This document shows positions 45,070-57,971 of a DNA stretch of 64,000 nucleotides, one piece after another; position 1 is the first letter of the stretch, and each line of letters starts with the position of its first letter. Made by a program: the position numbers and the translations under genes. Below the pieces are notes generated by a model that saw only the letters and a list, made by a program, of their open reading frames with translations, was not told the origin of the DNA and ran no database searches. This DNA is from Gillisia mitskevichiae (lineage in GTDB: Bacteria > Bacteroidota > Bacteroidia > Flavobacteriales > Flavobacteriaceae). Location: positions 124,001-188,000 of the forward strand of contig NZ_RBLG01000003.1 in the NCBI RefSeq assembly GCF_003634585.1, given 5' to 3'.

Positions 45070-45432
45070 TTAAAATTTAACTGTTACTATGGTTCCTATA
45101 ATAATTAAAAATAATCCTATTACTTTACCCCAAGTAAATGTTTCTCCCAGTAAAAAAACACCAATAAAAAAAACCAAGGCAGGAGCCAAACTCATAAAAG
45201 GATAAGCTACGGTAATTTCAAATTTAGTCATAGCAGCCATCCAAAATATAGAAGCCACGAATGCACTTAAAAAACCCGAAATTATATATATATCCATTAG
45301 GGCATGAAATAAAAAGGATGCTTTACCCGAAAAAGATTCTGGTAAACTTCCAAATTGATTAAGACGCCACTTTAAAATAATTTGACCATAAATAGTAAAA
45401 AATATGGTGCCAAAAATATAGATATAATTCAT
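45070..45432 (-). CDS. ArnE/F-like small four-helix transporter
   Basis: A 120-residue protein with four hydrophobic helices and the small-multidrug-resistance/EamA pattern: GQIILKWRLNQFG in TM1, then AYPFMSLAP and LLGETFTWGKVIGLFLIIIGTIV. The tail strongly resembles ArnE (AYP.LSL, E....W.G...II.G). It is a candidate flippase for undecaprenyl-phosphate-sugar. ArnE/ArnF form heterodimers but only one such gene is present, so a homodimer is expected. One base overlaps the rmlA stop. Confidence 0.75.
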   Translation of the reverse strand: MNYIYIFGTIFFTIYGQIILKWRLNQFGSLPESFSGKASFLFHALMDIYIISGFLSAFVASIFWMAAMTKFEITVAYPFMSLAPALVFFIGVFLLGETFTWGKVIGLFLIIIGTIVTVKF

Positions 45433-46289
45433 TATATTAAGGATCTTAAATACTCACCATAATTACTTTTACCGTATTTAAATATAGCATCCTCTATTTT
45501 ATCAAATCCTATAAATTTATGTATATACGCTACTTCTTCAATGCAGCCAATCATAGCGCTTTGTCTATTTTGAATTACCCGGATAAATTCAGTTGCATCG
45601 TCCAGTGATTCTACGGTGCCTGTATCGAACCATGCCATTCCTCGAGTCATCACCCCAACTTCTAAATTTCCTTCATCCAGATACATTTGATTGATAGTGG
45701 AAATCTCCAATTCACCACGATCAGATGGTTTTACATTTTTCGCATATTCCACCACACTATTATCATAAAAATATAATCCAGGAACTGCAAATTTAGATTT
45801 TGGTTTCTCCGGCTTCTCTTCAATACTAATTGCTTTATATTCTGAATCAAATTCTACTACCCCATATCTTTCTGGATCTTTAACGGGATATGCAAATATA
45901 GCTGCACCATTAACATCAACTTTACTTCTTAATAAGGACCCAAAACCATTTCCGTAAAAAATATTGTCACCCAAAACTAAAGCCACCTTTTCCTTACCAA
46001 TAAATTCCTCCCCAATAATAAATGCTTCTGCCAATCCATTTGGTTGTTCCTGTACAGCAAATTCAAATTTACAACCTACATGAGAGCCATTCCCTAATAA
46101 TTTTTTAAACGCTTCCTGATCATGAGGTGTTGTTATGAATAGAATCTCACGAATCCCTGCAAGCATTAATACTGATAGAGGGTAATAAATCATTGGCTTG
46201 TCGTAAACTGGTAACAGTTGTTTACTCACTGCTATTGTTATAGGAAACAATCTTGTCCCAGATCCTCCTGCTAATATGATTCCTTTCAT
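45432..46289 (-). CDS. rmlA: Glucose-1-phosphate thymidylyltransferase RmlA (copy 1)
   Basis: A 285-residue enzyme with [21 protein letters not shown] at the N-terminus, [19 protein letters not shown] and [11 protein letters not shown]. It makes dTDP-glucose from glucose-1-phosphate and dTTP, feeding RmlB, whose gene lies 6 bp upstream. The C-terminal part is complete (RSLI). Compared with copy 2 (55555) it is somewhat shorter and clearly diverged, so this is not a recent duplicate. Confidence 0.93.
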
Positions 46290-46295
46290 AATTTA

Positions 46296-47339
46296 TTAAT
46301 TGTATTGGTTCATATAGTATTCCTGATATTTTCCTGAGGTCACATTCTTTAACCAATCCTCATTATCTAAATACCATTCTATAGTTTTTTCAAGTCCCTG
46401 TTCAAATGTCACCGAGGGTTTCCAACCTAATTCATTATTGATTTTTGTTGCATCAATTGCATAGCGCTTATCGTGTCCCGGACGATTCTTGATATAGGTA
46501 ATTAGTATTGCGGAACTGCCACTATCCCTAAGGAGTTTTTTATCCATGAGTTCACAAAGGATCTTTATTAGATCGATATTTTGCCACTCATTGAAACCCC
46601 CAATATTATAAGTCTCTTTGTTTTTTCCTTTGTGAAAAGCAAGATCAATAGCGATTGCGTGATCAAGTACAAATAACCAATCTCTAGTGTATTTTCCATC
46701 GCCATAAACGGGAAGTGGTTTTTCCTCAATAATATTATTAATAAAAAGAGGGATTAGTTTTTCGGGAAATTGATTTGGGCCGTAATTATTTGAACAATTG
46801 GTTATAATATAAGGCAAGCCATAAGTTTCGCCATAAGCCCTTACAAAATGATCGGAACTGGCTTTTGATGCGGAATATGGCGAATTTGGAGCATAAGCTG
46901 TGGATTCTGTAAAAAGTCCGGTTTCACCCAAAGTTCCATATACTTCATCAGTGCTGATATGATAAAAAAGCTTGTCCTCTAAATTATCTTTCCATAATTC
47001 CTTTGCAGCATTTAGCAAATTCATAGTGCCTATTACATTGGTTTTTACAAAAGCCAATGGATCTGTAATGGAACGATCTACGTGAGATTCTGCCGCTAAA
47101 TGAATGACTTTATCGAAATTATATTTTTTAAATAAATTATTGATTTCAGAGGCATTATTTATATCAGCTTTTATAAAATGATAATTTGGTTTTTCCTCTA
47201 TGTCTAAAAGATTTTCCAAATTACCGGCATAGGTCAATGCATCTAAATTAAATATCTCGTATTGCGGATATTTATTAACGAAACGCCTTACAACGTGAGA
47301 ACCAATAAAACCAGCTCCTCCGGTAATTAATATTTTCAT
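46296..47339 (-). CDS. rmlB: dTDP-glucose 4,6-dehydratase RmlB (copy 1)
   Basis: A 347-residue extended SDR with ILITGGAGFIGSHVV, HLAAESHVDRSI, STDEVYGTLGETGLF, SPYSASKASSDHF and NCSNNYGPNQFPEKL, all canonical RmlB motifs (active-site Tyr and Lys in YSASK; Asp and Glu in TDEVYG). It gives dTDP-4-keto-6-deoxyglucose for the transaminase. It sits 9 bp from the epimerase gene and 6 bp from rmlA. The C-terminus ends YQEYYMNQYN; the second copy ends differently because of an inserted repeat. Confidence 0.94.
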   Translation of the reverse strand: MKILITGGAGFIGSHVVRRFVNKYPQYEIFNLDALTYAGNLENLLDIEEKPNYHFIKADINNASEINNLFKKYNFDKVIHLAAESHVDRSITDPLAFVKTNVIGTMNLLNAAKELWKDNLEDKLFYHISTDEVYGTLGETGLFTESTAYAPNSPYSASKASSDHFVRAYGETYGLPYIITNCSNNYGPNQFPEKLIPLFINNIIEEKPLPVYGDGKYTRDWLFVLDHAIAIDLAFHKGKNKETYNIGGFNEWQNIDLIKILCELMDKKLLRDSGSSAILITYIKNRPGHDKRYAIDATKINNELGWKPSVTFEQGLEKTIEWYLDNEDWLKNVTSGKYQEYYMNQYN

Positions 47340-55554: not shown

Positions 55555-56436
55555 TTATTGCTCCTTTTTATCTACAATTTTCATCAAGTATTCCCCATAT
55601 TCATTTTTTCGCAATGGGCTTGCCAGCTCCCGCAATTGTTCTCTGGAAATATATTTTTTATCGAAAGCTATCTCTTCAATACAGGCAATCTTTAATCCTT
55701 GACGCTTTTCTATGGTATGTACAAAATTGGAGGCATCTAAAAAAGACTCATGGGTGCCTGTATCTAGCCAGGCAAATCCTCTACCCATTAATACCACTTC
55801 TAATTTCTCTTCAGCTAAATATTTCTGGTTCACACTCGTGATTTCCAATTCCCCGCGCTCGCTTGGGTTTACAGATTTTGCAATCTTAATAACTGAATTT
55901 GGATAAAAATAAATCCCCGTTACTGCATAGTTACTTTTCGGATTAATAGGCTTCTCTTCGATACTCTTAACTTCACCTATACCATTAAAATCTACAACTC
56001 CATATCTATGTGGATCATTTACGTAATACCCAAAGACGGTTGCTTTTTTATTTTTGGAATTTTCTACTGCTTTTTTAAGCATACCTGTAAATCCTTGTCC
56101 GTAAAAAATATTATCCCCCAATATCAAACACACATCATCTTCCCCGATAAATTCTTCACCGATTATAAAGGCTTGAGCAAGGCCATCTGGGGAGGCTTGT
56201 TCTTCAAAATAAAATTTCATCCCCAACTCTTTTCCATCTCCTAATAACTTTTTAAAATTAGGAAGATCTTCAGGGGTAGAAATTATTAAAATTTCACGTA
56301 TTCCTGCTAACATTAAAACAGATAAAGGATAATAGATCATCGGTTTATCATAAATTGGCAATAGTTGTTTAGAAATTCCTTTTGTAATTGGGTAAAGTCT
56401 AGTGCCGGATCCTCCTGCTAGTATTATTCCTTTCAT
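55555..56436 (-). CDS. rmlA: Glucose-1-phosphate thymidylyltransferase RmlA (copy 2)
   Basis: A 293-residue RmlA with [43 protein letters not shown] and the late [13 protein letters not shown]. It performs the same reaction as copy 1 and feeds the nearby rmlB copy 2. Its start lies only 29 bp from the inverted repeat that bounds the GxxExxY insertion, and 455 bp from the rmlB copy. It is the closest intact relative of the pseudogene at 52300. Having two functional sets implies two amino-sugar products. Confidence 0.93.
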
Positions 56437-56465
56437 TTGATACGAATTTTTATTACAAATTAATC

Positions 56466-56482
56466 CGAATTAATCCGAATTT
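56466..56482. repeat. 17-bp terminal inverted repeat, left arm
   Basis: CGAATTAATCCGAATTT is the exact reverse complement of 56883-56899, with 400 bp between the arms. A second copy of AATTAATCCG overlaps it in tandem just to the left. Confidence 0.7.
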
Positions 56483-56507
56483 TTTGAATTTAATATTCTT
56501 TTATATA

Positions 56508-56867
56508 TTAGAGAAGACGTGCGAAATTAATCAACATTCCTAATTCCGTATTTGTACATTTTAAATAGTTTTTTAATTGAGCATAAAATACGGTAGGAGT
56601 TAGTTTAACTGCTTTTATTTCCAAAATAATAGAGTCATAACAAACGAAATCTGCTCTATATTGTTTCTTCAATTTTTGATTTTCGTAATATAGTTCTAGC
56701 TTAACTTGCTTTTTAAATTGTATTTTTTGGTTCCCAAATTCTTTCACCAAAGCTTCTTCATAAACCGCTTCCAAAAATCCGGGACCTAAGGTTCTATGAA
56801 CTTTCATACAGGCTCCTATTATTTTATAACTCTCTTCCTTGAATACTATATTCTCATTGGATTCCAT
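56508..56867 (-). CDS. GxxExxY family protein (PD-(D/E)XK nuclease-like)
   Basis: A 119-residue protein with GACMKVHRTLGPGFLEAVYEEAL, which contains the GxxExxY motif, then YRADFVCYDSIILEIKAV, whose Asp and E-I-K fit a PD-(D/E)XK nuclease active site, and a closing LKCTNTELGMLINFARLL. The end appears short compared with typical members. Its role is unknown; family members often lie between repeats in Bacteroidota and Planctomycetota. Here it sits inside perfect 17-bp inverted repeats, between rmlA and rmlB, so it looks like an inserted element rather than a polysaccharide gene. Confidence 0.85.
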   Translation of the reverse strand: MESNENIVFKEESYKIIGACMKVHRTLGPGFLEAVYEEALVKEFGNQKIQFKKQVKLELYYENQKLKKQYRADFVCYDSIILEIKAVKLTPTVFYAQLKNYLKCTNTELGMLINFARLL

Positions 56868-56882
56868 TCGTATAATTAGTAT

Positions 56883-56899
56883 AAATTCGGATTAATTCG
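56883..56899. repeat. 17-bp terminal inverted repeat, right arm
   Basis: AAATTCGGATTAATTCG pairs perfectly with 56466-56482. It overlaps the last codons and the stop (56892-56894) of rmlB copy 2, so it determines where that protein ends. Confidence 0.7.
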
Positions 56900-57971
56900 T
56901 TGCATATTGTTTTGTATAATATTCCTGATATTTCCCTGAGGTCACATTTTTTAACCAATCTTCATTATCCAAATACCAATCTATTGTCTTTTCTAATCCA
57001 TCTTCAAAAGTTACCGAGGGTTTCCAGCCTAATTGTTTACCTATTTTAGAGGCGTCTATAGCATAACGCTTGTCATGACCTGGACGATCTTTTACAAAGC
57101 TAATTAATTGCGCAGAGCTACCTTCCGCTCTGTTCAGTTTAGCATCCATTATTCTGCAAAGAAGTTTTACCAAGTTGATATTTTTCCATTCATTAATTCC
57201 ACCTATATTATAAGTTTCATTATTCTTTCCTTTGTGAAAAACCTTATCAACTGCAATAGCATGATCAATTACATATAACCAATCTCTTGTATAATCGCCA
57301 TTACCATAAACAGGCAGTGGCTTTTCTTCTATAATATTATTAATAAATAATGGAATTAGTTTCTCTGGAAATTGATTTGGGCCATAGTTATTTGAACAGT
57401 TGGAAATTATATAAGGCAAATCATAAGTTTCTCCATAAGCTCTCACAAAGTGATCTGAACTGGCTTTTGAAGCGGAATAAGGTGAATTGGGAGCATAAGA
57501 GGTGGTTTCTGCAAATAATCCTTCCTCTCCTAAAGTGCCATATACCTCATCTGTACTGATGTGATAAAACAATTTTCCCTGTAAATTATCTTTCCAAATT
57601 TTATTAGCTGCATTTAGAAGATTCATTGTTCCAATCACATTAGTTCTAACAAATGCAAGAGGATCTTTTATTGAGCGATCTACATGAGATTCTGCAGCTA
57701 AGTGAATAATTTTATCAAACTTATATTTTTCGAATATGCTATCTACTTTATTTGCATCATTGATATCGACCTTTAGAAAATGATAATTCTCCTTATCTTC
57801 CACATCAATTAAATTTTCTAAATTACCAGCATAGGTTAAGGCATCTAGGTTGAAAATATCATATTCCGGGTATTTATCCACAAACAATCTCACTACATGA
57901 GAGCCAATAAACCCTGCTCCACCAGTTATTAAAATTTTCACTTTTTTGAACTCATCCATTCTATATTTCAT
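56892..57971 (-). CDS. rmlB: dTDP-glucose 4,6-dehydratase RmlB (copy 2)
   Basis: A 359-residue RmlB with ILITGGAGFIGSHVV, HLAAESHVDRSI, STDEVYGTLGEEGLF, SPYSASKASSDHF and NCSNNYGPNQFPEKL. It closely follows copy 1 through its length. Its end reads KQYATN rather than NQYN, because the inverted repeat of the adjacent insertion supplies the last codons and the stop. The start at 57971 gives 11 residues before ILITGG; an internal ATG at 57959 is also possible. It should supply dTDP-4-keto-6-deoxyglucose for the VioA-like transaminase. Confidence 0.93.
   Translation of the reverse strand: MKYRMDEFKKVKILITGGAGFIGSHVVRLFVDKYPEYDIFNLDALTYAGNLENLIDVEDKENYHFLKVDINDANKVDSIFEKYKFDKIIHLAAESHVDRSIKDPLAFVRTNVIGTMNLLNAANKIWKDNLQGKLFYHISTDEVYGTLGEEGLFAETTSYAPNSPYSASKASSDHFVRAYGETYDLPYIISNCSNNYGPNQFPEKLIPLFINNIIEEKPLPVYGNGDYTRDWLYVIDHAIAVDKVFHKGKNNETYNIGGINEWKNINLVKLLCRIMDAKLNRAEGSSAQLISFVKDRPGHDKRYAIDASKIGKQLGWKPSVTFEDGLEKTIDWYLDNEDWLKNVTSGKYQEYYTKQYATN

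Follow-up and report, generated by a model that had tools for sequence, protein, structure and literature searches.

Insertion sequences with MITE derivatives occur in autonomous and gene-less forms with inverted ends, and REPs reach hundreds per genome. In REP/RAYT systems, according to one account, repeat copies lie beside the gene, gene-less inverted doublets form hairpins, singlets are present as well, and co-evolution of the enzyme and its repeat has been proposed (PMC3116915). IVS elements are described as short elements with a small ORF as sole gene (PMC4990558), and at one place in another article a cas4 gene is reported as GxxExxY (PMC8934634). No published description of an element like the one considered below was found among titles and beginnings of abstracts, a scope which mostly excludes subscription journals.

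The window is the whole stretch of DNA that was analysed (64 kb, G000:C3:124001-188000), situated in a 3.59-Mb genome of 18 contigs. It includes a GxxExxY gene enclosed by inverted arrays of short units between rmlB and rmlA. This is probably a mobile element with a single gene, the nuclease product of which recognises the element's own arrays, as judged from sequence comparison for both movement and recognition, and the window feature is best read as a full-length copy of such a small element.

The likeness to REP/RAYT exists at the level of the GxxExxY group, which also has a gene flanked by repeats, gene-less inverted doublets and singlets; it does not extend to the window's own unit type, the exact AATTAATCCGAATT having no other copy in the genome. 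The enzyme here is a PD-(D/E)XK nuclease and not a Y1 HUH transposase (PF01797 has no match in the window's genome, and the window gene matches PF13366 instead), the repeats are tandem heptamers and not REP palindromes, and at most 29 exact sites of one pattern are present per genome. By analogy, the element would work like REP/RAYT with an unrelated enzyme. Gene-bearing and gene-less forms and inverted ends are shared with IS/MITE families, and the window element has the inverted terminal repeats of a classical IS or MITE in the form of arrays; the differences are that there is no DDE transposase, that no target-site duplication was seen, and that the ends are multi-unit arrays differing between clades. 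IVS elements (S23-like four-helix-bundle proteins) resemble the window element in having a small ORF as sole gene, and four-helix-bundle genes with inverted arrays were also found here. Their protein is unrelated, however, their units are others (period 7–8), and the window element, which is no four-helix-bundle ORF inside 23S rRNA, lies in a protein operon. Cas4/RecB-family nucleases have the same fold and the same E-D-ExK and QxxxY residues, although the GxxExxY core comprises just about 108–119 aa.

Position, arms and protein of the window element

The element and its neighbours have the following coordinates in the window:

55555..56436, minus strand: rmlA copy 2, next gene of the operon
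56437..56903, minus strand (operon sense): whole element, about 467 bp, the rmlB-rmlA interval, its outer limits being a reading of the filled/empty comparison
56441..56480, plus strand: arm 3' of the GxxExxY gene, four units pointing into the gene
56441-56447, 56454-56460, 56464-56470 and 56474-56480, plus strand: downstream-arm units TACGAAT, TACAAAT, TCCGAAT and TCCGAAT, respectively
56466..56482, plus strand: left copy of the perfect 17-nt inverted repeat
56508..56867, minus strand: GxxExxY gene, 119 aa, PD-(D/E)XK nuclease core (E33, D73, E83-x-K85, Q97, Y101)
56866..56901, minus strand: arm 5' of the GxxExxY gene, four units
56895-56901, 56885-56891, 56875-56881 and 56866-56872, minus strand: upstream-arm units AACGAAT, TCCGAAT, TACTAAT and TACGAAT, respectively
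56883..56899, minus strand: right copy of the perfect 17-nt inverted repeat
56892..57971, minus strand: rmlB copy 2, the gene before the element, with its final codons and stop inside the arm

The three genes rmlB, GxxExxY and rmlA, whose families were confirmed by profile, are all on the minus strand. Each arm comprises four degenerate heptamers pointing inward at a pitch of 9–13 nt (about 10 nt). The outermost unit on the rmlB side, AACGAAT, consists of the last rmlB codons and is followed by the stop TAA (56892-56894), and the innermost one, TACGAAT, overlaps the start codon of the GxxExxY gene. As originally predicted, the sequences at 56466-56482 and 56883-56899, separated by 400 nt, are perfect reverse complements of 17 nt that enclose a single gene, the right arm covers the rmlB stop, and this rmlB ends in KQYATN as compared with NQYN in copy 1. 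The description of the ends as 17-bp terminal repeats stands for the exact match, which is real, but not for the arms, which are longer four-unit arrays and not simple repeats; the match is their best-conserved portion. The two diverged rmlA/rmlB pairs (45432-47339 and 55555-57971) share one polysaccharide locus.

The longest perfect inverted repeat of the window at an arm spacing of 300–600 nt is 17 nt, a length also reached by 1 of 40 random 64-kb dinucleotide-Markov sequences; taken alone, this repeat is borderline. AATTAATCCG occurs three times in the window, which is reached by 4 of 100 shuffles. The weight rests on the context, i.e., on AATTAATCCGAATT, which is confined to this element (exactly three copies in the 3.59-Mb genome, all of them here), and on the same layout in relatives. 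A chance repeat was ruled out on this context. A search for further copies of the repeat in the genome and in relatives had been suggested: AATTAATCCGAATT is absent elsewhere in the genome, but related arrays do surround GxxExxY genes in relatives. Similarly, AATTAATCCG-type repeats, which had been said to lie near such genes, turned out to be the unit of one subtype, while other clades use other heptamers.

The window protein matches TIGR04256 (GxxExxY; E 2e-39, 134.5 bits with a cut-off of 35) and PF13366 (131.7 bits with a cut-off of 22); besides nuclease families it matches, weakly, one domain of unknown function. Among 40 proteins E33, D73 and K85 are invariant, and E83, Q97 and Y101 are nearly so; the motifs formed by these residues are presumably those named E-D-ExK and QxxxY. 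The AlphaFold model of the protein has a mean pLDDT of 92.5. Its best Foldseek match is SSO0001 (probability 0.97, E 0.03, TMq 0.50), which we take to be a Cas4, and the second is a Cas4 family protein; there was no Foldseek match with E of 0.001 or lower. The profile match, core fold and acidic/ExK residues are those of the PD-(D/E)XK superfamily, and the protein models as a minimal Cas4-like/RecB-type PD-(D/E)XK nuclease with conserved catalytic residues. T7 endonuclease I was rejected as the nearest relative, the sequence match being too weak (E 0.56).

The gene could alternatively encode a toxin–antitoxin or defence nuclease under array-like operators, as the nuclease fold and the repeated, binding-site-like units near the start codon would allow. 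This has hardly any probability in view of the absence of a second gene between the arms among the window ORFs, of the lack of a PADLOC match for the window protein, and of the arrays found also downstream and in gene-less copies. As a candidate, a defence system was rejected with the protein of locus L100 likewise matching nothing in PADLOC and that of L016 matching Cas4 weakly (best E 0.0016). No CRISPR genes were seen adjoining the window GxxExxY copy.

Filled, empty and broken sites in the genus

A search for RmlB relatives covered 16 genomes of the genus. The suggested comparison of loci with and without the insert proved informative: the orthologous rmlB-rmlA junction is filled in G304 (L185; rmlB end KQYIAN) and empty in the congeners G305 (L183) and G300 (L184), where rmlA starts 9 nt past the end of the rmlB match. 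In G304 the gene is found at the same place with the same repeats, and not without them. The rmlA at these junctions is 95% (G305), 93% (G304) and 85% (G300) identical to copy 2 and 57–58% identical to copy 1. The copy-1 rmlA/rmlB pair, originally regarded as the empty arrangement, was therefore rejected as an empty allele; it is a paralogue, and the true empty sites are those of G305 and G300. A small element with a PD-(D/E)XK-like protein as its sole gene, as first proposed, is well supported by these empty and filled sites, by the layout in other genera and phyla, and by related gene-less arrays.

A short rmlB-rmlA gap is seen by eye in G303 (L191, rmlA 90%), and short gaps precede less similar rmlA genes in G111 and G302 (78 and 75%, respectively). 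In G299 one rmlB (L186) ends in the same arm, which is followed by other tandem repeats. Elsewhere in G299, before another rmlA (L231, L237), a GxxExxY element with CACGGAT units comes immediately after the 5' portion of a disrupted relative of the window gene; this relative has its own arm in front, and its 3' part was not seen there.

The second GxxExxY copy of the window genome (L002) contains two in-frame stops and has a perfect 20-nt inverted repeat, GCCACGAATTCACGAATATT, unlike that of the window. It lies between a small conserved gene and a putative ftsX. Orthologues of L002 without in-frame stops are present in G305 and G312. Several congeners have remnants of it, and in G300 the interval between the flanking genes shows none. 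At the rmlB-rmlA and ftsX junctions no target-site duplication was seen by eye in comparison with the empty alleles, which are diverged.

Layout, repeat units and placement across genomes

Matches to TIGR04256 were found in 73 of 299 family genomes (above the cut-off in 72). The first set comprised 112 GxxExxY copies with a profile score above 70 bits in the loci fetched. Within 100 nt of these genes inward CRCNRAK heptamers number 191 upstream and 182 downstream, compared with 47 and 35 outward ones and with 5–23 per bin at 500 nt or more from the gene. A strict CRCNRAK tandem pair is present on both sides of 53 of the 112 copies, on one side of 26 and on neither side of 33, the window copy being among the last. 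The array unit is an NNCNRAK heptamer with a pitch of usually 8–11 nt. In a wider NNCNRAK chain test on 132 copies (the first set and 20 copies from the window's genus), 118 of 264 arms pass and 146 fail, while 21 outward, no shuffled and one far (800–930 nt) arms pass. The window units were read from the sequence, and 7/8 of them are also in the chain (3/4 in the downstream arm, 4/4 in the upstream arm). Few copies have a long plain inverted repeat of the kind found in the window: 17/112 score above the 99th percentile of swapped-flank controls, and these controls share repeat families.

The heptamer was derived from the first set, and 80 named loci from many phyla provide a fairer test. In 74 of these loci, with 140-nt flanks, 77/148 arms pass as compared with 28/148 outward and 3/272 far. 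Inclusion of six rows first left out (L257, L259, L262, L267, L292 and L306), of which only L257 and L267 fail the 100-nt flank rule, gives 79/160 arms and 29/160 outward. With phyla taken from record titles, at least one arm passes at 22/31 of the 74 loci outside Bacteroidota (Planctomycetes, Verrucomicrobia, Chloroflexi, Cyanobacteria, Acidobacteria, Proteobacteria, Ignavibacteria and others) and at 28/43 inside. About half of the arms pass the inward tandem NNCNRAK test, and about 1% do so at 1 kb. Outward arms themselves pass more often than background; additional gene-less arrays are present in some flanks (L015, L042).

At one locus (L073, G234:C102) 13 CCACGAATNCACGAAT sites lie within about 2 kb around a single GxxExxY gene, which is a local amplification. 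A phage origin of the group was rejected, one viral contig having been found with an alignment covering part of the clades; the copy on it is flanked by an array at one end and by two units at the opposite end.

The type of unit was compared with the protein tree. On a tree of 96 proteins, built from few columns and with 12/93 inner branches starred, the 19 unit types need 37 changes, compared with 71.8 after shuffling (0/200 as low), and unit position 7 (T or G) needs two; 5/101 labelled copies are excluded from the tree as broken, truncated or on the author's drop list. In 57 two-armed elements the agreement between arms, out of 7 letters, is 6.20 within an element, 5.81 when arms are swapped within a clade and 4.52 between clades; 6.20 was reached by 0/5000 permutations. 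The heptamer letters and the pitch go with the protein clade, a correlation which shared inheritance inflates and explains in part. Since the non-coding arms are alike while the proteins are 33–70% identical to the window's, the arms must presumably be constrained.

The neighbours of the elements are mostly co-directional (106/111 upstream and 103/108 downstream, as compared with 245/315 adjacent pairs in 20 arbitrary 20-kb regions). Such placement could also be expected of a passive element, the arms of which would serve as RNA hairpins, terminators or mRNA stabilisers in operons, with the gene being a host nuclease that uses or regulates them; in addition, at one site in a genus a mini-element replaces other hairpins between apparently convergent genes. 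Nevertheless, a passive role is quite improbable, since patchy presence and broken copies within the genus, the placement of one element over part of another, and the clade-specific units with dispersed gene-less copies all fit a mobile element better.

In 53 of 65 elements, distances of 200 nt or more being excluded, the first unit is located 2–35 nt behind the upstream stop. The genes upstream of the 112 elements belong to 57 families; the largest one, methionyl aminopeptidase (named from one member), accounts for 25/112 with clades B and G alike, and each of eight clades follows 4–14 different families. The same upstream genes are met across genera, so movement is rare or sites are preferred; the placement favours preferred sites with long residence and speaks against frequent transposition. 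A site-specific homing-type nuclease could be considered here, which would cleave empty intergenic sites, the element being copied in by repair and the arms forming boundaries that shape recombination or transcription. Occupation of a site across genera, the methionyl aminopeptidase genes shared by the distant clades B and G, and the existence of both empty and filled alleles would agree with homing. It is nonetheless unlikely, as it does not sit well with the variety of upstream families within each of the eight clades, with gene-less arrays dispersed at unrelated sites, or with the lack of a common target word by eye at the rmlB-rmlA junctions.

Gene-less arrays and the proposed mode of action

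CGCAAAGNCGCAAAG was found at 75 sites in 32/299 genomes (two control hits) and CCACGAATNCACGAAT at 233 sites in 53/299 genomes (one control hit). A GxxExxY match is present in 19/32 genomes with CGCAAAGNCGCAAAG vs. 54/267 others, and in 35/53 genomes with CCACGAATNCACGAAT vs. 38/246 others (odds ratio 10.6). In 16 clade tests on 65 genomes with a typed member (uncorrected Fisher tests that ignore shared ancestry, clades being assigned by the best match to author-chosen references), CCACGAAT arrays are associated with clade A (odds ratio 8.8, p 0.0008) and CGCAAAG arrays with clade E8 (6.0, p 0.014), the cross pairings give 1.3 and 0.6 (CGCAAAG with clade A, 0.6), and clade G has weaker links to both patterns (3.3 and 3.1, p 0.04–0.05). 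Up to 29, 23, 23, 16, 15 and 14 CCACGAATNCACGAAT sites are found in clade-A genomes, own arms counted, while other GxxExxY genomes have at most nine each and the 226 genomes without a match have 30 altogether.

The objection that the repeats might be widespread and unlinked to GxxExxY genes is answered by the statistical link of arrays of this kind to these genes, although at many individual array sites none of them lies close by. No GxxExxY match is present in 18/53 genomes with CCACGAAT arrays and in 13/32 with CGCAAAG arrays. Among 30 CGCAAAG sites fetched, a GxxExxY gene lies within 1.5 kb at four, and the rest are solo arms, inverted pairs or chance matches in coding sequence. On inspection by eye, seven or more of these sites fall within coding sequence (L324, L331 and L335–L337 in one common stretch, presumably a GTPase gene, and L341/L342), their genomes being kept in the association count. 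Of 40 stretches, 37 have the CCACGAAT pattern and three the other one; the 37 comprise 20 inverted pairs with a spacer of 12–61 nt and 17 solo sites, some of which show a diverged second arm. The window genome has five CCACGAAT-type sites (two flanking L002, one pair at L415 and two solo). In G027, which has 23 array sites, pairs are present at 7/9 examined.

Hairpin folds of the DNA were obtained for three gene-less pairs (z −8.8, −11.0 and −5.6), and the left arm of the window alone does not fold (z 0.86). In a genus of 28 genomes, ten mini-elements at a single orthologous site have two-sided changes in 4/16 stem columns and eight stem columns with at least one sequence lacking a Watson–Crick pair; by eye, several other species hold other hairpins at this site. 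The within-genus difference in mini-element copy number between genomes with and without a clade-A gene (14 vs. 14 genomes, p 0.038, at most 20 candidates being scored per genome and one hairpin being able to match on both strands) is weak evidence. In G348, of the same genus as G027, a further 16 matches to mini-elements were found, and the clade-A protein has no match there.

Several arrangements of arrays were seen in addition. At L459 (G330, approximately 765-1525) CACGAAT-type arrays surround an unrelated small gene, which we take to be glyoxalase-like, where congeners hold a mini-element; perhaps this gene is a passenger. At L345, L346 and L339 arrays of different unit families are neighbours within a single intergenic stretch, which looks as though arrays accumulate at such sites. 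In G245 (L399–L410) the mini-element is found by eye inside a longer dispersed repeat with similar outer sequence in 11/12 stretches, L406 being different.

The arrays could belong to another mobile system, e.g., of the HUH-type REP/RAYT kind, which GxxExxY genes merely adjoin. Y1_Tnp matches are indeed present in 9/14 array-bearing genomes searched, including G245 with its 29 sites. Such a mover is very improbable, given that the unit type follows the GxxExxY clade and that no Y1_Tnp match was found in G000, G027, G234, G209 and G097, in spite of the 23 sites of G027; with these five of the 14 genomes devoid of a match, RAYT is unsupported as the mover.

Inverted arrays with a period of 7–8, e.g., TTGTTGG and GTGAACTG, were also observed at TIGR02436 four-helix-bundle genes (L122–L151). 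The tandem score is 10 or higher in 19/60 flanks of these genes and in 3/60 far controls, and at least five 7-mers are shared in the inverted sense at 17/30 loci compared with 2/30 far. CRCNRAK units are not enriched around the same genes.

In the preferred reading of a single-gene mobile element, the nuclease would bind its own arrays, probably when the inverted arms meet or fold into a hairpin on single-stranded DNA (this route is a guess), and would cut at the element ends. Copies with the gene would thereby be mobilised in cis and pairs without it in trans, and both would insert between co-directional genes, in many cases directly behind a stop codon. More broadly, and tentatively, GxxExxY proteins may be the enzymes of cross-phylum mobile repeats: a stand-alone Cas4-like nuclease would read a clade-specific heptamer code (letters and pitch), move its own gene and gene-less hairpin pairs, and co-evolve with the code, the four-helix-bundle genes being a second, parallel system of the same design.

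This reading offers a widespread nuclease family, so far without a known role, a function that can be tested, and it explains the dispersed repeats of many genomes searched here. If tandem heptamers are recognised by the nuclease through a clade-specific code, natural pairs of protein and repeat would show how a 110-aa nuclease core gains DNA specificity. If the reading is true, populations of REP-like repeats can also form around an enzyme that has no relation to HUH transposases.
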